Shown piece after piece: positions 5,531-26,932 of a stretch of DNA of 37,324 nucleotides. Each line of letters starts with the position of its first letter. The stretch's first letter is position 1. The notes beneath the pieces are model-generated. The model did not search any database. It was given only the letters and a program-made list of their open reading frames with translations, and was not told the DNA's origin. The stretch comes from an uncultured Caryophanales bacterium (GTDB taxonomy: Bacteria; Bacillota_I; Bacilli_A; RF39; UBA660), in NCBI GenBank assembly GCA_947306705.1, contig CAMZHD010000006.1:1-37324 (forward strand). The letters run 5' to 3'. The translations under genes were made by a program, and so were the position numbers.

Positions 5531-6376
5531 CTAGTCTTTCCACTCATATTTTTGACTTAACTTTTTATCAAGAACTTCTGGATGAAGTGCTACATCTTGT
5601 GCCATATTAACACTCTTTGCAAAATAGAAACCATCTGCAATTCTCTCATCCAACGTAAATGTTAAATCCACTCTTCTTCTACCATCCACTTCATGGATTG
5701 TTCCAATCGTAATAACAATAGAATTTGTACCATATTCATTTAAATGATGATAACAAGAATTCGCATGAATACTTCCTAAATTACTGAAAATAACGGTTGC
5801 ATAATTTGTATCTCCCTCAGTAAGAAATTTAGGATTCCATCCATGTTTATCTAAAAATTTAACAAATCCAACAATCATACCTAATAACCAACCAGGTAAT
5901 TTCGTAAAGAATTGTAACGTATCATCAAAATCATTTTTACCTTCATTTTTAGATTGAAATACATCAATCGCTGCTCTCTTACTCATTTCTAAAGCATTTT
6001 CTTCAGGATTTAATTCTAAGCAAATAATCTTTTCATCTGCATTATCTGTCATCTTATCTTTCGCAATAAAAGCAAAAGATACTTTATCTCTTTCATAGAC
6101 ACGTTTATTTTGAATAAAGCGATTTAATTTATTACGATTAAAGAATACTACTCCAAAAGTCGCTAATATGGCATGAAAATAAGTCATTTTATATTCTAAT
6201 TTTCCACTCTTATTTTTCTTATCTACATACTTGCATAATTCTTCAATATCAAAATCAAAAGTAGTAGATACTTCTGCATCTGTTCTACGATTAAAAATAT
6301 AAGGAAAAATAACCGCTATAGAACCCGTAGGTTTAATATACTTTCCATCTCTTCTATCTTTATTAAATAATCCCAT
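5531..6376 (-). CDS. Chloramphenicol acetyltransferase/E2-like acyltransferase-fold protein lacking the usual catalytic His
   Basis: The 281-residue sequence resembles the catalytic domain of 2-oxoacid dehydrogenase E2 and CAT-like acyltransferases: an early TFDFD strand, a central ATVIFSNLGSIH strand, and a C-terminal LTFTLDERIADGFYFAK block. In active E2/CAT enzymes the last block reads [DH]-H-x-x-x-D-G and its second residue is the catalytic histidine; here it is glutamate (DERIADG). There is no lipoyl or subunit-binding domain, so it is not part of a classical dehydrogenase complex. The AGGAG box overlaps the stop of the glycosyltransferase gene (6378), one base away, so the two are translated together. 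It may transfer acyl groups by a different mechanism, act in glycolipid or polysaccharide modification, or be inactive. Confidence 0.75.
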   Translation of the reverse strand: MGLFNKDRRDGKYIKPTGSIAVIFPYIFNRRTDAEVSTTFDFDIEELCKYVDKKNKSGKLEYKMTYFHAILATFGVVFFNRNKLNRFIQNKRVYERDKVSFAFIAKDKMTDNADEKIICLELNPEENALEMSKRAAIDVFQSKNEGKNDFDDTLQFFTKLPGWLLGMIVGFVKFLDKHGWNPKFLTEGDTNYATVIFSNLGSIHANSCYHHLNEYGTNSIVITIGTIHEVDGRRRVDLTFTLDERIADGFYFAKSVNMAQDVALHPEVLDKKLSQKYEWKD

Positions 6377-6377
6377 A

Positions 6378-7544
6378 CTAACTCCTTTTTATAGTATCCA
6401 AATACATTTGGTATACATCTTCTATCACTGTATCCCAATGATGATAAACATCTCGATAAGCACCTTCACTTACTTTTTTATATAAAGCAGTATCATTCAT
6501 AGCTTCATCAATAATATTCGCAAATTCTTCTTCATTCTTCGCAAGGAAACCATTTACTCGGTCTGTAATATCAGAACTTGTCTTAGAACCTTCCAAAAAT
6601 ACAGTAGGTACTTTCTGAGAAGCAGCTTCTATTTGTACAATACTAGAAGCATCATACAAGGATGGAAATAAGAATAAATCACTACGAACATAATACTCTT
6701 GTAATAAAGAACGATCTTCTACATTCCCACAAAGAATAATATTAGAATCTAATTTCTTTTGATGAATATACTTTTTTAACTCTTCATAATCTTGTCCATG
6801 TCCTACAAATAACATTTTATAAGAATAATTCAATTTCTTTTTATTTAATAAACTCAAGCTATCTACAATAAACAGGATATTCTTTAATTTATTAATTCTA
6901 CCTACAAACAAGAATACTTTATCTGAATCTTTCAAATGATGCATTTGATTTATATGATCTCTTGCTTTCTTTTTATGAGAGATATATTTCATTTCCGTAG
7001 CATTACAAAGTACATCCGGCATTTCCTTGACTCCATACTCATCATAATATAAATGAGCCATTCCACTATTTACCGCAAAACATTTACTACATCGATTATA
7101 AACAGATACAATTGTCTTTGTTAATTCTTGAGCCATCTTTTTATTATTCACAGCTCGAAAGAAATCTTGTCGATATTGACTATGCATTGTCCCAATGACA
7201 GGAATTTTTCTTCTTCTACCAATAAATACTCCATATTTTCCAATTGTAAAAGGAGAATGAATATGAATAATATCAAAATGATATTTAGATACTTCTTTTC
7301 TAAACTCTCGATCTACTAAAGGCAATGGTAAAGAATAATCCGCAAAAGGCATTTTAACACTTTTACATCTCACAATCTTATAAGGATAAACACTATCATC
7401 ATAAGGTTCCCTATAATCAGGAACAAAAACAACCACATTCGCAAATTTACTCAATCTTCTCGCATAATTATCTACTACCATTCCTACTCCATCCGTCATA
7501 GGAGGAAAAGAATCATTAAACAATCCAATCGTAATTGTCCTCAT
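6378..7544 (-). CDS. GT4-family glycosyltransferase (diacylglycerol glucosyltransferase-like)
   Basis: The start is placed at the ATG at 7544, with a GGTGAG box five bases upstream; a GTG three codons earlier lacks such a site. The 388-residue product has the GT-B, GT4 layout. The N-terminal domain carries FNDSFPPMTDGVG and IIHIHSPFTIGKYG, typical of the alpha-glucosyltransferases that act on diacylglycerol. The C-terminal nucleotide-sugar domain has FVGRINKLKN and the E-x7-E region, here D-x7-E (SLYDASSIVQIEA), so the first acidic residue is Asp rather than Glu. No membrane segment is evident; such enzymes sit on the inner face of the membrane. It heads an operon with the acyltransferase-fold protein and the phosphatase. 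Synthesis of a membrane glycolipid or lipoteichoic-acid anchor is likely but unproven. Confidence 0.88.
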   Translation of the reverse strand: MRTITIGLFNDSFPPMTDGVGMVVDNYARRLSKFANVVVFVPDYREPYDDSVYPYKIVRCKSVKMPFADYSLPLPLVDREFRKEVSKYHFDIIHIHSPFTIGKYGVFIGRRRKIPVIGTMHSQYRQDFFRAVNNKKMAQELTKTIVSVYNRCSKCFAVNSGMAHLYYDEYGVKEMPDVLCNATEMKYISHKKKARDHINQMHHLKDSDKVFLFVGRINKLKNILFIVDSLSLLNKKKLNYSYKMLFVGHGQDYEELKKYIHQKKLDSNIILCGNVEDRSLLQEYYVRSDLFLFPSLYDASSIVQIEAASQKVPTVFLEGSKTSSDITDRVNGFLAKNEEEFANIIDEAMNDTALYKKVSEGAYRDVYHHWDTVIEDVYQMYLDTIKRS

Positions 7545-8293: not shown

Positions 8294-8321
8294 AAAAATA
8301 TGGATAAAAATCCATATTTTT
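8294..8321 (-). terminator. Intrinsic terminator of the Big_2/beta-helix gene
   Basis: Perfect 12-base arms (8294-8305 and 8310-8321) with an AAAA loop on the plus strand. On the minus strand the hairpin ends in a short T run. The TAA stop at 8320-8322 lies in the stem. Confidence 0.75.
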
Positions 8322-11298
8322 AATAAGGGCAGTTTGTATTCCAATTTCCACTTGCAGAGTTTCCTTGATTATTAATTCTTTTGTTGCCAGAAAGTTTAGG
8401 ATATGGTTTATCAATACAAATGGCAGCACTCAAATAATTATCTGTAATCGTAATAGGGCCTGTAATTGGGCCAGTTCTTCCAGCCGTACTAATCGAATTT
8501 CCATTACCAAGACTGTATATTCTATTATTAGTAATGGTAATATGGTTTATTACATCAAAATCTTGATTTGGTTCTAAATCAATTCCTAATTGAGGAGAAG
8601 CTCCATGAATATCATAAATCTGATTATTATCAATTGTAACTTTAGTTCCAGACACTATAGAAATTCCTTGACGTCTACATTTATGAATTTTATTTCTCAG
8701 AATATAAATTTGATCTGTAGGATAAGAACCTGTATGGCTTCCACGCATTCTCATATAAATACCATCCCCTGTCATATAGGAAATATTCATATCCTCGATG
8801 TGAATATTACTAGAAGCTAATATCTTAATTCCAAATCCCCACTCATGAGTTCCTCCGTGGCTAGATCCACACATATTACTAGTTATATCATGATAACTAT
8901 CAATTAGATTTCCACTAGAATTACATCTATGGGTTTCTCGATCCCCCACAAGTCTTCCATTTCGAATAGTAGAATTTGTAACATTTTGAAAATAGACTAC
9001 AGCATATTTTGGATCATAATTGGTAAAAAGTTTAATAGTAGAACCATGCAAATCGAAATCTACATTAGAATACATACGAATCGCTGCATTATTATTGTTA
9101 TCTTTATCATCTACAATATTGGCAACCATATAAGTACCTTTGGCTATATAAATATTCCTAATGCCATTAATAGAGGCATACTGAATAGCCTCACTAATAC
9201 CCTTTGAATTTTTTGCAGCTATGGCTTTTTCAACATTGTCCCCTTCTGTAATGTGGAAATACTCATTATTGATTTTACCATTAGCAGCAATTGGTATTAC
9301 AGGAGCTGTAACAGTAACGACTGCACTTGCCTTCTTTCCATTGTTGCTTTGGGCAGTGATCGTAGCTTTTCCTGCACCAACTGCTGTAACATTTCCATTT
9401 CCATCTACCGTCGCAACAGATGGAGTGTCACTATACCAAGTAATGGAAGGATTGGTTGCATTAGAAGGAGTAATAGTTGCAATAATCTGCTCCGTACCTC
9501 CTACAACCAATGCTAAAGATGTTTTTGATAGAACGACACCTGTTACTTCGACCAAAGAACCTTTCTTTATAACAGATACAGAAACACTGGCAGATTTTCC
9601 ATTATTACTTTTAGCAATAACAGTAGTAGTACCCGCTTTTACACCTATTATTTTTCCATTCGCATTGACAGTCGCAATAGAAGTATCATTACTTTTCCAA
9701 GTAATGGTTGGATTCGTTGCATTAGAAGGACGAACCGAAGCAGTTACCGTAGTACTACCTCCTACTTCTAATTGAACATTATTCGTAGAGACAACTACTG
9801 ATGTAACATCAATCTCAGATTTATTTACTGTCACAATAAGACTTGCTGTCTTTCCATTATTACTCTTGACTATGATTGTAGCAGTTCCTTTTGATATAGC
9901 TGTTATTTTTCCAGTTTGTGTAACGGTTGCAACAGCAGCATTACTACTAGCCCAAGTAATCGTTTGATTCGTTGCATTACTTGGTTGTACAGAAGCACTA
10001 ACAGTTTCTGTTTGTCCAACTTCTAAAGAAACACTTGTCTTTGATAACGTAATTCCAGAAACCGCAATATCCGGTGAACTTTTTTTAGTAACAGCCACAG
10101 ACATACGGCTATTTTTTCCATTATAACTTTGAGCGATAATGGTTGCACTTCCTGCCTTCATAGCAGTAATAACTCCTCTTTGGTTTACCATTACAACGGA
10201 GGAATCACTACTAGAAAAAGTGATTGTTTGATTCGTTGCATTAGCCGGTTGTACAGAAGCAGTAATTACTTCTGTTTGACCTTCTTCCAAAATGGTACTA
10301 GTTTTAGATAACACCACTCCTGTTACTTCTACAATAGGAGTTCCGCCTGAAATGACTGTTACATAAACACTAGAAAGCATTCCATTAACACTTCTCGCAG
10401 TCACAATCGTCGTTCCTGCTTGTACTGCTTTTATTTTTCCACCATCTGTTACAGTTGCAACAGCAGGATTACTACTAGTCCAAGTAAGTGCCTGAACCGT
10501 TGCATTTTTTGGATTTACAGTAGCCGTAATGGTTTCTGTTTGTCCAATTTCCAATGTAATATTATTCTTAGATAAAGAAATACTAGTAACATCTACATTA
10601 TGAGAACTACTTTTTCCAACAGTAACCGCAATACTATCACTTTTCCCATTACTACTCTTCACAGTAATGGTAGCAGTTCCCTCTCGAATCGCCACAATTT
10701 TTCCACTTTCATTTACTGTCACAATAGAAGAATTACTACTAGACCAAATCAAAGTTCTATACGTAGCATCTTTTGGGCTAATAGTAGCTTGAAGAGTCTC
10801 TGATTCTCCTACTTTCATACGCATACTCTTTTTTGATAACGTAACTTGATTTACTTCTATAATCGGAACACTAGAGGGAACAACTGAAACATTTGCTTCT
10901 GCTACTATTCCATTATCACTCTCAGCTGTAATAATAGCAGTTCCTTCTCCTACTCCTACAACATATCCATTTTGATCCACATCTGCAATCGAAATATTAC
11001 TACTTTTCCAAGTAATGGTTGGAGTCGTCGCAGCATCCGGAGTAATAATTACTTCTAAAATAACTACTTCCCCAATATGAATAGAATAAGCATTTTGAAC
11101 AAAGCTAAGTTGTTCTACAGGAATTACCTGTTCTGGTGCAACTTGAGGAACTGACTCTATAATACTATGTAAATTTCTTGCTTCTCTTTTTCCACCCTGC
11201 AAATATTGAATTCCATTTCCAATTCCATAACATAACAAGAAGCCAAAAACAGCTATAAAAATAACACTAATAAGAGTTCCTTTTTTATCAGTATCCAT
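8320..11298 (-). CDS. Anchored surface protein: seven Big_2 Ig-like domains plus right-handed beta-helix
   Basis: The 992-residue product has one N-terminal membrane segment (about 9-27) and a short linker. Seven bacterial Ig-like (Big_2) domains follow, near residues 60-140, 148-228, 235-315, 323-404, 411-491, 496-577 and 582-664. Each shows the family pattern of a strand ending in L, an E-x-G-x-[ST] turn, a [NS]AT-x-x-x-[IL]-x-W region, an S-[IV]-A-x-V strand and a final GTATI/NGK repeat end. From about 670 to 970 is a pectate-lyase-like parallel beta-helix with repeated ITITNN-type rungs, as in polysaccharide-binding or -cleaving surface proteins. No sortase motif is seen. It is monocistronic, with its own terminator. 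A stalk of Ig domains presenting a glycan-active helix is the likely arrangement; catalysis is unproven. Confidence 0.88.
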   Translation of the reverse strand: MDTDKKGTLISVIFIAVFGFLLCYGIGNGIQYLQGGKREARNLHSIIESVPQVAPEQVIPVEQLSFVQNAYSIHIGEVVILEVIITPDAATTPTITWKSSNISIADVDQNGYVVGVGEGTAIITAESDNGIVAEANVSVVPSSVPIIEVNQVTLSKKSMRMKVGESETLQATISPKDATYRTLIWSSSNSSIVTVNESGKIVAIREGTATITVKSSNGKSDSIAVTVGKSSSHNVDVTSISLSKNNITLEIGQTETITATVNPKNATVQALTWTSSNPAVATVTDGGKIKAVQAGTTIVTARSVNGMLSSVYVTVISGGTPIVEVTGVVLSKTSTILEEGQTEVITASVQPANATNQTITFSSSDSSVVMVNQRGVITAMKAGSATIIAQSYNGKNSRMSVAVTKKSSPDIAVSGITLSKTSVSLEVGQTETVSASVQPSNATNQTITWASSNAAVATVTQTGKITAISKGTATIIVKSNNGKTASLIVTVNKSEIDVTSVVVSTNNVQLEVGGSTTVTASVRPSNATNPTITWKSNDTSIATVNANGKIIGVKAGTTTVIAKSNNGKSASVSVSVIKKGSLVEVTGVVLSKTSLALVVGGTEQIIATITPSNATNPSITWYSDTPSVATVDGNGNVTAVGAGKATITAQSNNGKKASAVVTVTAPVIPIAANGKINNEYFHITEGDNVEKAIAAKNSKGISEAIQYASINGIRNIYIAKGTYMVANIVDDKDNNNNAAIRMYSNVDFDLHGSTIKLFTNYDPKYAVVYFQNVTNSTIRNGRLVGDRETHRCNSSGNLIDSYHDITSNMCGSSHGGTHEWGFGIKILASSNIHIEDMNISYMTGDGIYMRMRGSHTGSYPTDQIYILRNKIHKCRRQGISIVSGTKVTIDNNQIYDIHGASPQLGIDLEPNQDFDVINHITITNNRIYSLGNGNSISTAGRTGPITGPITITDNYLSAAICIDKPYPKLSGNKRINNQGNSASGNWNTNCPY
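9304..11121 (-). repeat. Seven tandem Big_2-encoding repeats
   Basis: The coding repeat has a period of about 86 codons (roughly 260 bases). Units 4, 5 and 7 are the most alike (GVVLSKTS or GITLSKTS starts), pointing to recent duplication in the C-terminal half. The first unit is the most diverged. Confidence 0.8.
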
Positions 11299-11427: not shown

Positions 11428-13305
11428 TTATATCGTCTGTCCAAGATAAGTAATGATAGCGGCCCCACCAGTGGTACTAGGATTGGTTCCTACTAAATTA
11501 GATGTATAAGAAGAAGCACTTAATACATTTTGATTAACGTAAGAAGAACCCCCTCCTCCTCCAGAACCAGCATATAGATTAATAATAGTAGCTTTTTGGC
11601 TTCCACCGCCGGCTCCACCATAGAAACCAGAACCTCCTCCTCCACCTAAGTAGATAGCAGATCCACCAGTGAATAAAGAACCAGAACCTGTAGCAACACC
11701 ACTGTTAGTTCCTCCTACATTGGTTCCTCCCAAAGCAGGGAAATTAGAACAGTTAATAGTTGTTGTACCATTAGAACCATTATAAATAATTCCATTATCA
11801 TAAGCTGTCTTTGCAGAAGTTGTAATGTTTCCACCATCTCCACCAGATCCAGCAGTAGCAGTGATTGTTCTAGTACCACCACCTCCAGCTCCTCCAGCGA
11901 TTAATAATACTTTATTATCATTTAAGTCTGTGAGATTAATTGAAGAAACATTTACCCCGAAAGCAGAATATCCTCCACCTCCGGCACCTCCTCCAGAAGA
12001 AGGGCCTCCTCCATTAGCTCCCCCTACGCAAGATATATCTGATGAAAAAAGATTTGTTCCTGTGGATTCTCCATTTCCGCCAAGAGTGATATATAAAGTA
12101 TCTTCGTAATTCAAGTGAACGATTCCATAGACATATCCACTTGCTCCACCGAGACCCGAATTCAAGTTCAGATTTCCTCTACCACCAGCACCACCCCATA
12201 GTTCTATCAGATAATATCCATCTTTGTAGATTTCTTGAGTAACAACGGTTGGAACCGTTAGATCTGTATTGGTAAAAGTTCCTTCAAAAGGAGTTGCTTC
12301 TTGTAAAGTAACATTAATTGTTTGATTTCCTCCATTAATAACAGTAGAAGAAGTTTCTGTATTATAACCATTTTTCTTAACAGTATAAGTTATAGTATGT
12401 CCATCATATACAGAAACAGTTTGATTTCCTGTAGAATGAACTAATTCATTTCCACCCTCACTAATAATAACGGTAGCATCCGAGGGAGTTGGATGAATCG
12501 ACAACTGATAAACAACCGCTGTTTGCATGGTAACATTAATAACTTTATCTCCATCCATCGTAATGGTTCCTGTTTGAGGAAGATATCCTGTTTTTGTAAC
12601 AGTCCAAGTAATAACCGCATTTTCTTCAATTGGTCCTGAAAAATTACCTGTTCCAGACGCAATAACTTCTCCATTATGTTCAATCACAATCAAAGAATCA
12701 GGTTCCGTTGTATTAATCGTTAGATTATGATTTGGTAAATAACTCCACCCCACTGTAAATTGAGACGTAATATTCGTTAAATTTTGTGCAATCAAATAAG
12801 AAACTACATCCCCTACAAGTCCCAAAATATTGGTAATTAAATCTCTATTATAATAAATAACCACTTGAAAAGTATGTTCTGAAGCAGGAGGTATATAAGT
12901 TTCATTTACAGTAAGATTTCTTAATTCATAAGTCATATACATATTCGAAAAAGAATCTTTATTAAAACTTGTAATATAAACACCTGTAGAAGATAAATTT
13001 GTAATAGTAATGTCGGCAATTAAAGTTCCATACGTATATAAAGCTCCAGGAACAGTACCATTCAAATAAAAGGAATGTGTACTAAACTCCATATCTTCAT
13101 TTAGATACCCTCCATTTGTAGTACTATTCAAAGAAACACTCGTAATTCTTACATCACTATAAGGTCTTACGTACCCTCCTCCATCAATAGCAAAACTTGT
13201 GGAATATAAAGAATATCCAAAAGAAAAAGCTATAATCATTATAGCAAAGAAAAAAACAACTGGAGCAGTATTAAAATAATCATAGAATGTCTTTTTTTTC
13301 TTCAT
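11428..13305 (-). CDS. Surface protein with two PEGA domains and glycine-rich domain, probable SipW substrate
   Basis: The 625-residue product starts with a hydrophobic segment (residues 14-32) reading into FSFGYSLYSTSF, the same pattern as the TasA-like protein of this operon (LSFGYAAWSTTL), followed by YVRPYSDVRITSVSL. Residues 60-190 form a beta-rich domain. Two PEGA-type domains follow (about 193-260 and 265-334), each ending in a K-x-G-Y...INVT[ML]Q pattern. The C-terminal half (345-625) is a glycine-rich domain beginning LWGGAGGRG, with many GGGG turns and SSYVNQ near the end, like the Gly_rich surface domain. It overlaps the DUF5305-like gene by 26 bases with a GGAGG box, and is the last gene before a strong terminator. 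It is most likely a cell-surface matrix or adhesion protein. Confidence 0.85.
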   Translation of the reverse strand: MKKKKTFYDYFNTAPVVFFFAIMIIAFSFGYSLYSTSFAIDGGGYVRPYSDVRITSVSLNSTTNGGYLNEDMEFSTHSFYLNGTVPGALYTYGTLIADITITNLSSTGVYITSFNKDSFSNMYMTYELRNLTVNETYIPPASEHTFQVVIYYNRDLITNILGLVGDVVSYLIAQNLTNITSQFTVGWSYLPNHNLTINTTEPDSLIVIEHNGEVIASGTGNFSGPIEENAVITWTVTKTGYLPQTGTITMDGDKVINVTMQTAVVYQLSIHPTPSDATVIISEGGNELVHSTGNQTVSVYDGHTITYTVKKNGYNTETSSTVINGGNQTINVTLQEATPFEGTFTNTDLTVPTVVTQEIYKDGYYLIELWGGAGGRGNLNLNSGLGGASGYVYGIVHLNYEDTLYITLGGNGESTGTNLFSSDISCVGGANGGGPSSGGGAGGGGYSAFGVNVSSINLTDLNDNKVLLIAGGAGGGGTRTITATAGSGGDGGNITTSAKTAYDNGIIYNGSNGTTTINCSNFPALGGTNVGGTNSGVATGSGSLFTGGSAIYLGGGGGSGFYGGAGGGSQKATIINLYAGSGGGGGSSYVNQNVLSASSYTSNLVGTNPSTTGGAAIITYLGQTI

Positions 13306-14386
13306 TTACTCCTCCATTTGTTTCAATTGTTTTTTCTATTAAATCTGCACTATTTAATAAATAACGATATAGAATATCTTCATTAATAATATAAAATAAT
13401 GCTGTTTTACCAGGATCTATTTCACTATATAAGATAGGAGATCCTATATTATCATGAACATCTCTTAATTCTTCAAAAGAAGAAATATCAATGACTTGAT
13501 GATTTGTAATATCAGCAGTATCTTTTACATTTGCAATAATACTATCATTCTCTTTTAGAATCCTAGATAAAACTAATTCATATTTACTTTTTCCCTTAAA
13601 TAGAGATAAACCATTTTTAACAATATATATTCCTACAAAGATAGAACCTGTGAAAGAAATGATAAATAGAAGGAAACTAATAATAAATGACTTACTAAAT
13701 AGTTTCTTTTTAACAACAGTTCCTCTATTAGAAATATTATCATCTTCAAATGATATATTAATAGTTCTCTCCGTTAAAGGAATTCTAACTAATGATTTAC
13801 TATCCAATGTAATTGGTTTTTTAAATTTATCATTAGTACTTTTACTAACTACATTTAATACAACAGATACATCACTATCAGAAGTTAATCCATATCTAGA
13901 TTTAAACTCTTTTGCAAATTCATTGTATTTATCATAGTCAATACTAATATCTTGACTAAAACTATAATCTGCTACTTTATCTTTATAAACAGTAACAGCA
14001 TCTAATAATGGCTCTTTCTTTTCATATAATACAGTCTTTTTATCATCACTATATACTTTGACAATCGCATCAATTGTATAATACATGTCATACTTTGCAA
14101 GTTCAGATACAGAGAACTTATAATCATACGTTAATTCTATCTCATCAATTAATCCCGCAATATAACTCATACCTTGAGGTAATCGATTTGTTTCATAATA
14201 ATCATTCTCTTTTAATTTCACAAAGTAAGTCGCTTCACTCTTTTCATTATAAGTGATTACTTCTCCTGAATTATATACAAAAGCCTTTAAGAAACATCTA
14301 GTAGAAATACCAAAAAGCAAAGCAAAAACAACTAATGCAAGTATTAGTTTTGTAGAAGCATTCAGTTCTATTTTTTTACTAAACAT
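13280..14386 (-). CDS. DUF5305-like membrane protein of the SipW operon
   Basis: The 368-residue product has a membrane segment near residues 12-32, an extracellular beta-rich domain (35-225), a second membrane segment (about 232-256) and a cytoplasmic tail of about 110 residues. The ectodomain pattern of YDYKFSVSELAKYDMYYTIDA, a later VLYEKKEPLL strand and the paired membrane segments matches DUF5305, a family I know from archaea and Bacillota beside SipW-type signal peptidases. It lies 19 bases after sipW and overlaps the next gene. The tail contains short strands and a conserved-looking ISSFEELRDVHDN segment. Topology suggests an assembly partner for SipW-processed proteins or a sensor; this is inferred. 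Confidence 0.7.
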   Translation of the reverse strand: MFSKKIELNASTKLILALVVFALLFGISTRCFLKAFVYNSGEVITYNEKSEATYFVKLKENDYYETNRLPQGMSYIAGLIDEIELTYDYKFSVSELAKYDMYYTIDAIVKVYSDDKKTVLYEKKEPLLDAVTVYKDKVADYSFSQDISIDYDKYNEFAKEFKSRYGLTSDSDVSVVLNVVSKSTNDKFKKPITLDSKSLVRIPLTERTINISFEDDNISNRGTVVKKKLFSKSFIISFLLFIISFTGSIFVGIYIVKNGLSLFKGKSKYELVLSRILKENDSIIANVKDTADITNHQVIDISSFEELRDVHDNIGSPILYSEIDPGKTALFYIINEDILYRYLLNSADLIEKTIETNGGVNEEKKDIL

Positions 14387-14405
14387 TTCTTATCCTTCTT
14401 CCTTT

Positions 14406-15545
14406 TTATTCATTAAATAAATCATATAAGTATACAGTAGGCAACCCAATATATTTTATTTTAATATGAGTAGTTCCTACAATATCACTAACTTCAATGA
14501 GATAACCATCAGGGTTATCATTATGATCCCCTTTTGTTTCAAAAAATACTTCTTTTCCAGAATTATATTTTTTATAAATTCTATGAACAATGATTTTATC
14601 TTCTCTTTTAAAAACTAAAATATCACCAATATTAAGATCTCTTTTTTCTTCTTCTTTTAGTTTTTTAACAATTACTACGTCTCCTCTATCCAAATGAGGT
14701 TGCATACTACCACTCGCAATAACAATCGCTTGATGACTAAATAAACCACTCGTTAAAGATATCACAACTCCCAATACAAGTAAGGTACAAACATATAATA
14801 GTTTATGACTTTTTCTACTTTTAATATTTTCTTGATTAATTGGTAACTTTTTATAGAAATTATTAATAAGTATAAGTACAATGACTGGTATAGATAATTC
14901 ACAAATTGCTTGTAAATAATTTCCAAGATTGGGAACAATAGGTACCAAAAAGATTGGAATCTCTTTAATCAATCGATAAGTAATTTGTGTCTTATAACTA
15001 CTCTTAGTCGTTAAATATGTTAATAAAACATTTTTACTAATACTAGGAATAATATACAAACTAATACTATCGATATAAGTTGCTAATTCATGAAAATGAA
15101 TCTTACTAAATACAATAGAAGTATCTACCAAGAAAAAGAATACAAAAGATAAACATAAAAGAAATCGATTTTCTTTTATTTTTGTATTAATCATAAATCT
15201 ACATACTTCACATAGAATAATCATAAAAATCGTAGGAAGTATATTCTTGATAATACTAATTAGATTTAAATTATAAACATTATAATTAAATCCAAAGAAT
15301 AATCCACTTAAATAGAGAATTACATAATAGGTAATACAACTAATTAATAGGATTAAGATAATATCTTTTTCAAATCTTTTTTTACTACGATCAAATCCCA
15401 ACAATAATGCTGTTAGAAAAATCAGTAATAATAAGATTCCTGTAATCCAATATTGATTAATATTTTTAAAAACAAAACTTAATAAAAAGAAAAAACAGCA
15501 TGATAATGACAACATAGTTGTTGCATAAACAGTACTTTTTTTCAT
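14406..15545 (-). CDS. sipW: SipW/ER-type signal peptidase I with extended multi-pass N-terminus
   Basis: The 379-residue product has roughly seven to eight hydrophobic segments in residues 8-270, followed by the S26B signal peptidase domain. The catalytic serine is S280 in IASGSMQP, the histidine that replaces the bacterial lysine is H321 in IVHRIY, and the acidic region is KGDHND near 338-343, all as in the ER/SipW type. At 379 residues it is about twice the length of Bacillus SipW (about 190) because of the extra membrane domain. It follows the TasA-like gene by nine bases, its ribosome-binding site overlapping that gene's stop, and precedes the DUF5305-like gene. It should cleave the signal peptides of the TasA-like and PEGA proteins. 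The peptidase family is firm; the substrates are inferred from neighbourhood. Confidence 0.88.
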   Translation of the reverse strand: MKKSTVYATTMLSLSCCFFFLLSFVFKNINQYWITGILLLLIFLTALLLGFDRSKKRFEKDIILILLISCITYYVILYLSGLFFGFNYNVYNLNLISIIKNILPTIFMIILCEVCRFMINTKIKENRFLLCLSFVFFFLVDTSIVFSKIHFHELATYIDSISLYIIPSISKNVLLTYLTTKSSYKTQITYRLIKEIPIFLVPIVPNLGNYLQAICELSIPVIVLILINNFYKKLPINQENIKSRKSHKLLYVCTLLVLGVVISLTSGLFSHQAIVIASGSMQPHLDRGDVVIVKKLKEEEKRDLNIGDILVFKREDKIIVHRIYKKYNSGKEVFFETKGDHNDNPDGYLIEVSDIVGTTHIKIKYIGLPTVYLYDLFNE

Positions 15546-15554
15546 ATTTTTATC

Positions 15555-16148
15555 CTAATTTTGTTCATAAATCATTGTTGTTGTAGAAACAGTTACTTTA
15601 ATATCATCTGTTGGAGTAGCAGAGCTTGTACTCTTCCATTGAAGTGTCATTTTTAATTCTTTACTTCCAGTATTTTTAACTAAAGTATCATTAACAGCAA
15701 TAGCACTTCCATCAGCATATGTTAAAGTATAAGTTAAATCATTACATACGGCAGTTGCTTCTGCTTGAGTAGCAGTACTTCCTGTAGCTGGTGCACAACT
15801 AATAGTACCCATATTGTAAGTTTTTAATTTTGCATCAATGCTTCCTTCATTTTTAACTAACCAGTTATAAGTAACAGAATCTCCAGGTGCCTTTAAAGTA
15901 ATATCAAATCCACTAACAGCAGTTGAAGTTAAAGTTGCTCCTGTTGATGATGCATTTCCTGTAATCGTTGGTGTTAAAGATGATCCTGACTTATAAGCAA
16001 AATGAACATCCCAAGTTGCAGGATTAACCTTCGCACTTCCTGATATTGTTAATGTTGTTGACCATGCTGCATAACCAAATGATAATCCAGCAACAGCTAC
16101 CACCAATGCTATTAACGCAATTATTTTAAACCCTCTATCTTTTTCCAT
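15555..16148 (-). CDS. SipW-dependent TasA/camelysin-like surface protein
   Basis: The 197-residue protein has a charged start, a hydrophobic signal segment (residues 8-26) and the sequence SFGYAAWSTTLTISGSA, then NPATWDVHF. The last motif ([AV]-[ST]-W-[DN]-[VI]) recurs in the other TasA-like proteins here (positions 34075-34659 and 34687-35430). The mature part is threonine-, serine- and alanine-rich and predicted beta-sandwich, as in TasA and camelysin, whose SipW-cleaved forms polymerise as biofilm fibres. One cysteine pair is visible (about residues 115-135: ISCAPATGS and AVCNDL). It is the first gene of the operon with an excellent promoter (16203-16231), which suggests it is made in the largest amount. 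Fibre formation is inferred from the family. Confidence 0.83.
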   Translation of the reverse strand: MEKDRGFKIIALIALVVAVAGLSFGYAAWSTTLTISGSAKVNPATWDVHFAYKSGSSLTPTITGNASSTGATLTSTAVSGFDITLKAPGDSVTYNWLVKNEGSIDAKLKTYNMGTISCAPATGSTATQAEATAVCNDLTYTLTYADGSAIAVNDTLVKNTGSKELKMTLQWKSTSSATPTDDIKVTVSTTTMIYEQN

Positions 16149-22200: not shown

Positions 22201-25200
22201 CTAATTATCCAATACACGGATATAAGGAACATCCGCATTCTTATCATAATTGAATAATCCTGCATCAATGGCAGCTGGGTGAATTGCCCCACGGCTAATC
22301 TCTGTTAAAGTAACAGAAGAATCTCCAGGATTATAAGACGTTGTATAAGATTTATAGTAAGTGGTTGCGGTATAAGTAACTCCCCCAATCGTAACAGACC
22401 ATTCTGGGCAAGACCTTGGTACCATACCAATCGCAATATAATTGTAGTTACTTTGTTTTGGATTATAGAAGCAATCAATATAACCACAAGTGGCTTGATA
22501 GGTTGTACGAGATGGATTTGTTTCAGGATGTAAGCACCTATAACTATTCAAGATAGCATCACGATAATACGTTGTCTTTGTATAATATCCAAATATATTA
22601 TTGGTTGGACAATTTGTATTCATAGGAGCAGAAGCACTGTTGTTCTTAACCCAGTAATAACATCTTCCTCCACATTTTTCAGCAGAAATCTTTGAGTTAT
22701 TCGTTACTGGATTTCCTTGAGAATCTGTATACGTACGATCCGGATCAAAAGTATATTCATAAATTGGATTCGTATTAATTGGATTCGTACAAACAGTATA
22801 ATCTTTATCATAAAGAGTTGTTTTAGTTGCCGTATGATTACTTGAATCCGCAACTTTTAACGTTAGAGAAACCGTATCATCTGTTAACTCACTAGGATCT
22901 GGATATTCAATAGTATAAGTTTTTCCACTAGACCCACTAAATGTCTCTCCATTGATATCTTGAGTAATATAATTCGTACAAGCCGTTAAACCAACACAAA
23001 CTTTATATGTATCCAATGGATCTGTAACTAGAACTTCTACAAGAACTCTACCATTTTCATCTTTGGCAGCTTTAAATGCTTTAATAACAGGTGTTTCATC
23101 ATTTACCACTTGATAATCAACAATGGATGTAATTGTTTCTGTAGTCTCTGTAACATTTCTAGAATCACGTACTCGAGCATAGATATGGTAAATAGATCCA
23201 TCTAAGGAACCAGGTAATGTGAAATCATATCCATTTGGATTATAAGTTACATAATTGTTTAGACAAGATTCTGTATCAGAATTTCCCTTTTTATAACAAA
23301 CTCTTACTTTGATATCTCCATCAGAATCAAAATCATCTCTGGCATCAATATCAAAATGAATATCTAATCCATTTCCATCAGGATTTCTTGATAAAACTCT
23401 AGGATTTGTATCCCATCCGATCACTCCTCTAATGAAAGGTGGTCTATCTTTATAAATCCAATAGGATTCAGATTCAGTTCCAATGTTTCCTTTATTATCC
23501 TTCGCAAATACATATAGAGTTTTTTCAGCACTTGGTTGATTATAGTATGGGAATGATCCCGTAGTAGTAAATGTATAATCATACTCATTTTGAGAATAAG
23601 GAACATAATTTGAAGCATGAGACTCATCACATTGATTTGGATCTTCGTTGAAACAGACTAATAAATCTTCTTGATTCGTTACATCATCAATAACTCCTAA
23701 AGTAATTTTTACATCAACCGTTCCACCAATCATAGATGGACACAAATCAACATTATGAGAACAAGCAGTACCGATACTACTAATATTAATTCCATTAATA
23801 GAAGGAGCTTGATCCATATACAATTGATAGTCAACAAAAGCTGTAGAAGTTTCTCCATAAGAATCTGTTAAGGTAATAACAATATGTTTCGTAGAACCAT
23901 CATAATTTCCATCAACAACAAAATCTATATTTTGACGATTATAATTTGCAAGAGTACTAGTTACTTTTAAAGTATCATCTTGTGTAATCTTTAATTCAAC
24001 TGTATCACTTTCTCCAAAATCATCTTCTGCTACTAGTTGAATATAAGTATTTAAGTTTCCTTCTTCAATAGAGTTTTCAGGATTAGAAGCTACGTTGAAA
24101 GATTCAATTCTTGGAGCTTGATTCTTATATAATTGATAAGTTGCACTTGTAGTTGAAACATGACCAGCAGCATCCATTAAACCAACATATAAATTACGAA
24201 CACGATTGGTTCCATCATATGGATGGGTTTCATCTAATGCAAAATCATATACTTTTTCATAATATCGGAATGACATTCCATAAGTTTCCGTAAAAGCACT
24301 TGGATTAGAGGCAACACACACATCAGGAGATTCAGAAAGACAAGCTAAAACATCATCATTTGAATTAATATCATCTGCAGCTTCTAATCGAAGAACAACA
24401 TGTCCTCCTCCCCCTAACTCAATAGGGCATAATGCTTCATTTTCGCACGCAATTCCAAGACTCGTAACTGTAAAACTACTAATAGCAGGAGCAAGATCTT
24501 CATGAACCACATATTTAGCAGTTTTAGGATTACTAACAGCACCCATAGAATCTTCAAGAGTAACCGTTAAAGTTCTCTCTTCCCCATCATAAGTACCAGC
24601 AAAAGTAAATGGAATTGGATTGTATAAATCATAATGAGTATCTTTTGTATTGACTCCATCTGATAAATGAACAATTACTTGATCATTAGGAGTAATATCA
24701 TCTGTAAAAGAAACACTGACATTAACAGATAAATTATGATATCCCGTAGTAACAGATTCAACTGCTACATAATCAGTTCCAGAAACATATTCATATTGAG
24801 GAGCAGCATTATTATGGAATGTATATTGAAAATCAGCAGAAGATACTTTTCCTGAAGTATCTTTTACAAAAGCATTTAAAGTACAACCACTTCCACATTG
24901 AAATGCATAATCTTTACTATCGGTATCTCCAAAATAAGAAGCATATGTAACATATTCTGAATCAGAACAAGTAGCACCGCTTCCCTCTGCAAAACAAACA
25001 CTTAATTCATCTGCTGTATTAATATCATCACTGATAGATAATCTTAATTTTGCAATCGTATTATTATAATTTTCATTATCTCTTCTAGATAACCCAGAGT
25101 TACTAAGGTTAATTTCAGGAGCTTCATTCGTATGTAATTGATATTCTAATGTCTTTTTCGCAACATTCTCTTTATCATCTTTTACAACGACAAAGATTTG

Positions 25201-26040
25201 AATAGTCTCTCCATTATAAGAATGATGACCATCATTAAAATCAAATGTTTTGGTAAAAGTATTATTATCTCCGTAATTGGTTCCTGTCCCAGAAGTTGCA
25301 TCATCATATCCTGTTAAGGATGTATAAACCGTTAAGCGATTCCTGGGAGTATCAGAATCATCTACTCTCAAAGTTAAAGTAGCATCCAAAGAATTATAAC
25401 TTTTTCCAGAAGTAGAACTAAGAGATGCTTTCATAATCTTAGGAGAAGATGAATTATCTTGAATAGAACTATCTGCTAAATCAGGAGAATTATAAACATG
25501 ATCAATTTCGGTTACATAATGATTTCCTAATTTTTGATTGATATAGTCAACCGTCATATGAGTATCTTCTACATAGACTAAATCTGCTTTTTGAAAAGTC
25601 TTAACTCTTCTATGTGCAGATCTTGAAGATAAAACATTTTCTTTCGTAAGTTCTATTCCTCGATACTCTCCATTTTTTGTTTTCTCTATAATCGTTGCAG
25701 AATACTCCATTTGACTATTGTCATTTTTAATAACGACATAAGATGCTTCTTTCTCATATTTTCCTTCATTTGGAGGGCTTTCAAACTCATCGCTATCTAG
25801 ATAGACTAAACTAACAACGATACACTCTCCTGGATTTGGTTTTTCAATATCAGAAGAAGCAGAACGAATCTTATAATCTGCTTTTGCGATTAATTTTTTC
25901 GCATCCGAAATATAAATCTTATCTTTGCTATCGCTAACCATGTTCACAATTCTAGGAATTGCAAAAATAGCTAAAACTCCCAAAATAACAACAGCCGCTA
26001 ATAACTCGATTAAAGTAAACCCCTTATGATTTTTACGCAT
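22201..26040 (-). CDS. Giant type IV prepilin-like protein (1279 residues) with eight tandem ectodomain repeats
   Basis: The ATG at 26040 has a GGAGGG box six bases upstream and is preferred to the frame reaching 26070. Residues 1-25 are a canonical prepilin leader: MRKNHKG then FTLIELLAAVVILGVLAIFAIP, with cleavage expected after G7 and glutamate at mature position 5. Residues 26-199 resemble the start of a pilin-like head with a C73. Residues 200-1083 hold eight repeats of about 100-125 residues (near 200, 307, 413, 517, 642, 745, 867, 983). Each has a central DD-[IF/V]-x3-D-x-[LV]-x-V motif and ends in a Y-x-[LVI]-[YH]-x-[ND]-x-[AP]P-x-I boundary. Residues 1084-1279 form a cysteine-rich C-terminal domain (eight cysteines). 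Ordinary pilins are about 150 residues. No pilus motor or prepilin peptidase gene is visible here. Confidence 0.88.
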   Translation of the reverse strand: MRKNHKGFTLIELLAAVVILGVLAIFAIPRIVNMVSDSKDKIYISDAKKLIAKADYKIRSASSDIEKPNPGECIVVSLVYLDSDEFESPPNEGKYEKEASYVVIKNDNSQMEYSATIIEKTKNGEYRGIELTKENVLSSRSAHRRVKTFQKADLVYVEDTHMTVDYINQKLGNHYVTEIDHVYNSPDLADSSIQDNSSSPKIMKASLSSTSGKSYNSLDATLTLRVDDSDTPRNRLTVYTSLTGYDDATSGTGTNYGDNNTFTKTFDFNDGHHSYNGETIQIFVVVKDDKENVAKKTLEYQLHTNEAPEINLSNSGLSRRDNENYNNTIAKLRLSISDDINTADELSVCFAEGSGATCSDSEYVTYASYFGDTDSKDYAFQCGSGCTLNAFVKDTSGKVSSADFQYTFHNNAAPQYEYVSGTDYVAVESVTTGYHNLSVNVSVSFTDDITPNDQVIVHLSDGVNTKDTHYDLYNPIPFTFAGTYDGEERTLTVTLEDSMGAVSNPKTAKYVVHEDLAPAISSFTVTSLGIACENEALCPIELGGGGHVVLRLEAADDINSNDDVLACLSESPDVCVASNPSAFTETYGMSFRYYEKVYDFALDETHPYDGTNRVRNLYVGLMDAAGHVSTTSATYQLYKNQAPRIESFNVASNPENSIEEGNLNTYIQLVAEDDFGESDTVELKITQDDTLKVTSTLANYNRQNIDFVVDGNYDGSTKHIVITLTDSYGETSTAFVDYQLYMDQAPSINGINISSIGTACSHNVDLCPSMIGGTVDVKITLGVIDDVTNQEDLLVCFNEDPNQCDESHASNYVPYSQNEYDYTFTTTGSFPYYNQPSAEKTLYVFAKDNKGNIGTESESYWIYKDRPPFIRGVIGWDTNPRVLSRNPDGNGLDIHFDIDARDDFDSDGDIKVRVCYKKGNSDTESCLNNYVTYNPNGYDFTLPGSLDGSIYHIYARVRDSRNVTETTETITSIVDYQVVNDETPVIKAFKAAKDENGRVLVEVLVTDPLDTYKVCVGLTACTNYITQDINGETFSGSSGKTYTIEYPDPSELTDDTVSLTLKVADSSNHTATKTTLYDKDYTVCTNPINTNPIYEYTFDPDRTYTDSQGNPVTNNSKISAEKCGGRCYYWVKNNSASAPMNTNCPTNNIFGYYTKTTYYRDAILNSYRCLHPETNPSRTTYQATCGYIDCFYNPKQSNYNYIAIGMVPRSCPEWSVTIGGVTYTATTYYKSYTTSYNPGDSSVTLTEISRGAIHPAAIDAGLFNYDKNADVPYIRVLDN
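22792..25443 (-). repeat. Eight protein-level repeats within the giant prepilin
   Basis: The repeats cover residues 200-1083, with units of about 300-370 bases. Units 4 and 6 share an extra cysteine loop (GIACENEALCP and GTACSHNVDLCP) after the boundary motif. Units 2, 4, 6, 7 and 8 carry a C-x(5-10)-C pair after the DD motif, while units 1, 3 and 5 do not. The pattern suggests duplication of two-unit blocks. Confidence 0.75.
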
Positions 26041-26053
26041 AGTATCCCTCCAT

Positions 26054-26932
26054 TCATTTCTTAAAAACAAATAGTTTACTGAAAATATAATTTAATAGTA
26101 TGACTACTACATTAGCAGTAATCTTAGAAAACAATTCATTAAGACTCATCACATCAATCATCAAATACATAATTCCCATATCAACTACTAATGTAACAAG
26201 TCGACTGATAAAAAAGGAAACACTCTCTTTTAATACTTTCAAGAAATTTTTCTCTCTGCTTTCAAACACAAATAACTTATTGGTAACAAAAGCAAATAGT
26301 ACTCCTACTATCCAAGCAATCATATTACTTACATAGACAGAAAGTGGAATTTTTCTTAACAGTATAAACGTTACTATATTAACAAGAGTCGTACAAGCTC
26401 CAAAAAATAAATACCATAATCCTTCTCGATACTTGTTATACCAAGAAGTATGATTTTCTTCTTCAATGTAAGTATCTAATAGATGAATCATATTCTTTGT
26501 ATTACTCTTAAATTTCTTTGGTTTAAAAGTTTTAATTTCTTTTAATAACTTTCCTAATTGATTAAAATCACTTAATTCAAGGATATATCCTTGTTTTACA
26601 AATTCTCCAATAATTTGTTTTTGATGATCATTATGATGTTCCTTATATTCTGCAAGTCTTGCTGCCGCAATGACTTTTTTTCCACGTTTAATGGCACCTA
26701 AGATAGATCCGGCTCCTCCATGAGTAATGATGATATCAGCCTCATCCATCAAACGATCAAATTCAGGTGCTGGTAATAAATCAAAGATTTCCATACAATC
26801 AGATTCATATTTTGTTTGCCCTGCTTGTACAACAACCTTTTCTTTGATTGATCCTTTTTTAATTTCCTTTTCAACAGCTTGTAATAGTCTAGGAAATTCT
26901 TTATCTTGTGTTCCTAATATAACAAGTATCAT
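26054..26932 (-). CDS. PssE-like glycosyltransferase (GT28 C-terminal) fused to a GtrA-type membrane domain
   Basis: The ATG at 26932 overlaps the stop of the preceding gene (TAATG), giving 292 residues; a longer GTG start four codons earlier is less likely. Residues 1-150 form the nucleotide-sugar-binding domain of PssE/Alg13-like enzymes: ILVILGTQD, DEADIIITHGGAGSILGAI and a KQIIGEFVKQGYIL segment. From about 165 to the end are four hydrophobic helices with the GtrA-family pattern (LWYLFFGACTTLVN, FVTNKLFVFESREK, LLNYIFSKLFVFK). GtrA proteins help move lipid-linked sugars across the membrane. The preceding gene encodes the PssD/Alg14-like partner that normally recruits PssE. The fusion would couple sugar transfer and flipping. 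It lies 13 bases before the prepilin. Confidence 0.85.
   Translation of the reverse strand: MILVILGTQDKEFPRLLQAVEKEIKKGSIKEKVVVQAGQTKYESDCMEIFDLLPAPEFDRLMDEADIIITHGGAGSILGAIKRGKKVIAAARLAEYKEHHNDHQKQIIGEFVKQGYILELSDFNQLGKLLKEIKTFKPKKFKSNTKNMIHLLDTYIEEENHTSWYNKYREGLWYLFFGACTTLVNIVTFILLRKIPLSVYVSNMIAWIVGVLFAFVTNKLFVFESREKNFLKVLKESVSFFISRLVTLVVDMGIMYLMIDVMSLNELFSKITANVVVILLNYIFSKLFVFKK

Follow-up and report, generated by a model that had tools for sequence, protein, structure and literature searches.

We analysed a 37,324-nucleotide (nt) stretch of DNA from an uncultured Caryophanales bacterium (assembly GCA_947306705.1, contig CAMZHD010000006.1; the window hereafter). Four adjacent genes on its minus strand encode a TasA-like protein (gene 1), a long SipW signal peptidase (gene 2), a DUF5305 membrane protein (gene 3) and a second TasA-like protein extended by a stalk and a glycine-rich domain of the ALK/LTK type (gene 4). 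We propose that this operon probably builds a sortase-independent fibre of the TasA donor-strand type, which ends in an exchangeable adhesive or binding head. The main points of interest are the coupling of long SipW to DUF5305, the design of a subunit combined with an exchangeable head, and the ALK-type head itself.

Genes 1 and 4 encode related predicted SipW substrates

Gene 1 (16148-15555, minus strand) is an open reading frame (ORF) of 197 amino acids (aa) that an earlier note on this DNA had called TasA-like. A profile of its family (36 sequences) compared with the PDB matched the archaeal protein AbpX (9sj2) with an E-value of 7e-4 over 120 residues. The same profile gave a weak match to Bacillaceae TasA (83.7%, E 8e-6, 40 columns only), and the motif PGDsvtY...N.G..DA is common to the two families. 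The earlier name is consistent with these distant matches. A Pfam and NCBIfam scan of gene 1 returned no TasA, camelysin/CalY or cognate_SipW model up to E 1, and since no curated TasA family matches, we refer to the protein as TasA-like and not as TasA. Its SipW-type signal ends in GYA↓AWST (P2 Tyr26, P2' Trp29), which aligns with the TasA register TWA↓AFND, the cleavage position (arrow) being set by alignment only.

Gene 4 (13305-11428, minus strand, 625 aa) starts with a signal of the same type (residues 1-32, 13305-13210) ending in GYS↓LYST, with Tyr31 at P2 and Tyr34 at P2'. In the register of TasA, P2 and P2' are occupied by aromatic residues in both predicted substrates. Aromatic residues at P2' impede E. 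coli LepB, and so does the P2 tryptophan of TasA (PMC10269814). The likeness extends beyond the signal. Residues 33-192 (13209-12730) form a predicted TasA-like anchor domain with a putative N-terminal donor strand; in hhalign the gene 4 N-terminus matched the TasA-like family at 98.9% (E 1e-17), and after removal of the signal the N-domain still matched at 95.6% (E 4e-9), compared to 0.1% for a DUF5305 control. Pairwise BLASTP of the two N-termini gave E 2e-4. The related N-termini reported earlier are thus real, but the description was incomplete, as the whole TasA-like domain is shared.

The anchor is followed by two stalk domains (residues 193-263 and 264-337, 12729-12295). These had been described as PEGA units. 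Two PEGA-like units are present, but the Pfam PEGA model has no match in gene 4, and the only family to match the stalk is PF25641 (E 7e-10). Structure searches with the stalk, which was modelled with a predicted local distance difference test (pLDDT) score of ~90 or more in most blocks, returned CnaB-type domains, SlaB and pilins (Z 8-10), indicating a CnaB/transthyretin-like fold. Collectively, these matches predict that the gene 4 protein is a TasA-like subunit bearing a two-domain stalk.

The gene 4 protein ends in an ALK/LTK-type domain

Residues 338-622 of gene 4 (12294-11440, minus strand) matched PF12810 over positions 6-226 of its 243 with 64 bits, well above the cut-off of 24.5 (E 3e-17). 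A profile was built from 19 bacterial domains, that of the window among them; searched against 177,635 PDB sequences, it returned only ALK, LTK and scd-2 (E 9e-10), and chance glycine richness was rejected as the cause of the match on this ground. In a PDB search with a three-sequence profile of gene 4 by itself, ALK was not reached. Because the composition-bias term of the 19-domain search was large (42.5 bits), a structure comparison was added. Foldseek ranked LTK and ALK at the top, and the 12 best VIA-align rows were all ALK or LTK (Z 13.2-14.8 over 200-220 residues), the next row having a Z of 10.0. Since confidence in the model is only partial for this region, the assignment of the fold rests on sequence and structure jointly. 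Gene 4 residues 338-622 share both the sequence profile and the predicted fold of the ALK/LTK domain (PF12810; 7lrz, 7nx1), but they belong to a bacterial surface protein that has no kinase or EGF part.

The putative assembly genes stay while the heads differ

The ALK-like head at this locus is common to three genomes: that of the window and those of two further species (L091 and L092). Among 39 genomes of the genus it was found at the locus in G000 and G005, and in addition in L091. In a tree of SipW sequences, the window, L091 and L092 group with the loci L072 and L095 (support 0.999). At the sister locus L072 the anchor and PEGA part is kept (E 2e-10) and the protein ends in Listeria-Bacteroides repeats. 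More widely, the fourth gene of related loci keeps its N-domain and carries various passengers, among them Listeria-Bacteroides repeats, DUF285 and a phage Gp10-like domain. The ALK-like head is local to a few genomes, and heads are probably swapped between loci with the assembly genes staying in place.

Domains of this type also occur elsewhere. The source genome encodes two other ALK-type glycine-rich proteins, a 979-aa frame with surface repeats (L001, contig C17) and a 632-aa frame whose N-terminus is pilin-like (L003, contig C15), and frames of like size are found in many members of the genus. Related ALK-type head domains are present in viral contigs (L171-L201), several per protein; in L171, at least four copies lie over three adjacent frames, with a cysteine-rich repeat frame in their midst. 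The viral proteins are possibly phage receptor-binding or decoration proteins. A phage origin of gene 4 was considered and rejected, as the whole protein matches nothing in viral contigs or phage records.

Long SipW is paired with DUF5305 across genomes

Gene 2 (15545-14406, minus strand, 379 aa) had been described as a peptidase of the SipW type to which a large membrane domain is added, and both parts of that description were confirmed. Residues 249-379 (14801-14406) match the ER/archaeal-type signal peptidase I (S26B; ER, endoplasmic reticulum) model TIGR02228 with 102 bits (cut-off 51.85) and human SEC11A with E 9e-20. The Bacillus SipW equivalog NF046067 matched over residues 251-367 only, at 70.8 bits, below its cut-off of 190. 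In the alignment, Ser280, His321, Asp340 and Asp346 are kept in the homologues and lost only in the degenerate one of L088. Residues 1-248 (15545-14802) contain six hydrophobic segments that precede the catalytic segment. In an alignment of 19 homologues G81, G85, E113xxR116, P205 and P220 are invariant in this domain, and a Pfam scan of it returned no family. The L088 homologue (5735-6940), which lacks Ser and His at the catalytic positions (DTSAIGP, IIIDRIA), is perhaps a dead peptidase; its neighbours are a TasA-like gene and a gene for a giant protein that has three domains of the ALK type.

Gene 3 (14386-13280, minus strand, 368 aa) matched DUF5305 (PF17231) over the full profile (1-217 of 217) with 60.6 bits against a cut-off of 29. 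The earlier assignment as DUF5305-like was therefore correct, and the outcome named beforehand as refuting it, a protein that is not DUF5305-like, did not occur. An AlphaFold2 model built with 42 relatives (pLDDT 88.6, predicted template modelling score 0.64) has a transmembrane helix at residues 10-37, an extracytoplasmic beta-sandwich at 43-225, a second transmembrane helix at 232-263 and a cytoplasmic alpha/beta part at 268-345. A known fold for DUF5305 was sought and rejected, as only generic beta-sandwiches were recovered, the best domain rows having Z ~7.7 (transglutaminase, arrestin-like, TRAP), and these do not allow a family to be assigned. SPC22/23, a subunit of the signal peptidase complex considered as a counterpart of DUF5305, was not among the fold-search matches listed, which excludes nothing, and DUF5305 is not named in the literature searched.

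When GTDB genomes were scanned, 80 loci were obtained in Bacilli and Clostridia, among them the cultured Geosporobacter, Lachnoanaerobaculum and Clostridium. Nearly all of these have the order TasA-like, long SipW, DUF5305. The module is present, for instance, in the cultured Clostridium prolinivorans (L158). At loci picked by SipW similarity, DUF5305 lies within 2.5 kb of 65 of the 67 long SipW genes compared to 1 of the 11 short ones, and that single short SipW is a split long gene. Because these loci had been selected by SipW, 20 loci were picked by DUF5305 instead; 16 of them have a SipW homologue of 367-402 aa. In two of these (L202 and L203) the peptidase part lies at the N-terminal side of the protein. 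In the host genus long SipW is near-universal and often multicopy, with DUF5305 mostly a few hundred bases away, and the source genome itself has at least three more SipW-DUF5305 loci with different downstream genes. In Lachnoanaerobaculum, the protein adjoining DUF5305 passes the NCBI SipW-cognate signal model, a link between the module and SipW substrates. The pairing of DUF5305 with a SipW that has the six-helix domain is widespread and not peculiar to the window. It is the head that is unusual at this locus, and the pairing of SipW with DUF5305 is not.

Some neighbourhoods of the module differ. At four loci from Clostridia and Halobacillus (L128, L138, L143 and L148), a response regulator gene (~206-213 aa) lies upstream of the SipW module, an arrangement that resembles the way in which a two-component system controls the bsa operon of C. 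perfringens; at L128 and L143 a larger gene, possibly for a kinase, precedes it. L202 (G142, contig C49) encodes acidic, haloarchaea-like proteins, and its genome is listed in the same class. The SipW-like and DUF5305 neighbours there suggest that archaea use the pair as well, or else that the assembly is contaminated. Lone DUF5305 genes with no recognised SipW alongside stand beside a UvrD-like helicase gene, a nucleotidyltransferase gene or both (L210, L218 and L220), and this neighbourhood is a second conserved setting for DUF5305.

The four genes have the layout of an operon

The ORFs of the earlier note, with gaps of 19 nt or less or overlaps, were recovered with exact coordinates. Genes 1 and 2 are separated by 9 nt and genes 2 and 3 by 19 nt, and genes 3 and 4 overlap by 26 nt. 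A GGAG site lies upstream of gene 1, and a sequence resembling a ribosome-binding site (GGAGGAG) stands directly before the gene 4 start, within the end of gene 3. One strong promoter and one terminator had also been claimed. A TTGAAA-17-TATAAT site upstream of the operon (16231-16203, minus strand), which is a consensus match only (11/12), has the top promoter-like score within 8 kb, but promoter-like sites overall are not enriched (37 compared to 46.5 in shuffled sequences). Terminator-like hairpins with T-runs lie on both sides: one after gene 4 (11423-11399, minus strand; -10.6 kcal/mol, z -3.68) and one that ends the preceding gene (16304-16283, minus strand; -11.1 kcal/mol, z -3.67). From this layout, genes 1-4 are predicted to form a real operon. 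Comparison of gene order, a check set beforehand, found these four genes in the same order in L091 (SipW identity 72%) and L092 (58%), and the order is therefore no accident of assembly.

Two other large proteins are encoded in the window. Adjoining the operon, 8320-11298 encodes a 992-aa protein, probably another surface protein, which has seven Big_2 domains and terminates in a beta-helix. Among glycosyltransferase genes, 22201-26070 encodes a 1289-aa protein that bears the pilin-type motif for prokaryotic N-terminal methylation.

A model for fibre assembly

In B. subtilis, TasA subunits join through an N-terminal donor strand, and TapA, which has an N-terminus like this strand, provides the first one and initiates the fibre (PMC9674648, PMC10151520). 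The layout in the window is the same, which suggests that gene 4 starts the fibre and that its head lies at the end, the position also proposed for the cap subunit of archaeal threads (PMC9715654). The gene order, the families, the domain homologies, the SipW-DUF5305 pairing and the different head at L072 can be read directly from the sequences, and from them we infer how the parts may act. The gene 2 SipW would free the gene 1 and gene 4 proteins, and gene 1 would polymerise as the repeating subunit. Gene 4 would be a minor subunit whose free N-terminal strand enters the fibre by donor-strand exchange, giving the first strand, so that its stalk and ALK/LTK-like head protrude at the fibre end and bind a partner. 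The DUF5305 protein would be a constant partner in the membrane, either for the peptidase or for the fibre as it grows; it is probably an accessory or assembly platform, with the outer beta-sandwich handling subunits or peptidase.

Known systems share parts of this arrangement. The tapA-sipW-tasA operon of B. subtilis also combines a fibre subunit with an ER-type peptidase of its own and with a minor partner that has a donor-strand-like N-terminus (PMC9674648, PMC10151520). In contrast, the peptidase of the window is longer by ~250 membrane residues, the operon includes a DUF5305 gene, the minor partner is long and carries a stalk and an ALK-like head, and the similarity of the subunits is remote. 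The sipW-bsaABCRSD operon of C. perfringens likewise places sipW beside a polymerising secreted protein, and loss of sipW there halts BsaA secretion and pellicle formation; it differs in that it encodes another three secreted proteins as well as a two-component system (PMC7395162). Among proteins of solved structure, AbpX of the archaeal bundling pili (PDB 9sj2) gave the best profile match to gene 1. Archaeal threads assemble by donor-strand complementation, with a cap subunit proposed; this cap, Saci_0405, has no predicted Sec signal, whereas gene 4 has one (PMC9715654). CapP of B. cereus is an accessory protein beside tasA/calY that controls fibre formation (PMC13082335). We rejected it as an equivalent of gene 4, because CapP has a predicted helical N-domain and disordered repeats, and no TasA-like domain.

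Several points weigh against the proposed fibre. The kinship of gene 1 to Bacillus TasA is remote, being confined to the 40-column core motif, and the NCBIfam SipW-cognate signal model matches neither gene 1 nor gene 4. In the AlphaFold model of the gene 4 protein, whose mean pLDDT over its whole length is 66, confidence is low for the N-domain and for the glycine-rich loops. The selection by SipW similarity qualifies the 65 of 67 count, and 4 of the 20 loci picked by DUF5305 have no recognised SipW alongside. Gene 4 could also be a free or wall-bound adhesin outside the fibre that merely shares the peptidase, as the other ALK-type proteins of the genome have other N-termini, pilin-like on C15 and in a repeat-bearing surface protein on C17. 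We consider this rather unlikely, since the gene 4 N-domain is homologous to the fibre subunit itself, beyond the shared signal, and is kept while the passengers vary.

The earlier note had suggested that the glycine-rich part may form matrix material. The operon would then make bulk matrix with this part as structural filler, a reading to which the 26% glycine of gene 4 residues 345-622 and the role of Bacillus TasA-type proteins as matrix proteins lend some weight. It is nevertheless improbable: the match to ALK/LTK is specific, whole-length and seen in both sequence and fold, no other PDB family appeared in the profile result, and the heads vary between related loci. The identity of the domain argues for a folded binding head and not for bulk matrix. 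As for gene 3, its cytoplasmic part (268-345), behind the second membrane helix, could signal inward, making DUF5305 a regulator or an anti-sigma-like secretion sensor instead of an assembly factor. This is unlikely, as a Pfam scan of that part found no DNA-binding or sigma-binding family and the gene stands between the peptidase and substrate genes at nearly every locus. Beyond the fibre proposed here, it is conceivable, if doubtful as a whole, that long SipW and DUF5305 constitute an export machine for fibres that is widespread and separate from the short SipW of Bacillus, with DUF5305 as the assembly platform and the last gene as an exchangeable head, and that the ligand-binding domain of animal ALK/LTK belongs to a family that supplies such heads both to bacterial surfaces and to proteins associated with phages.

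The proposed fibre gives DUF5305, a family of unknown function, a testable job beside the long SipW. In animals the head domain is known for binding signalling ligands; here it would stand at what is predicted to be the tip of a bacterial fibre. Together, these results suggest that the TasA-type fibres of gut and rumen Bacilli bear swappable heads, like the tip adhesins of chaperone-usher pili.

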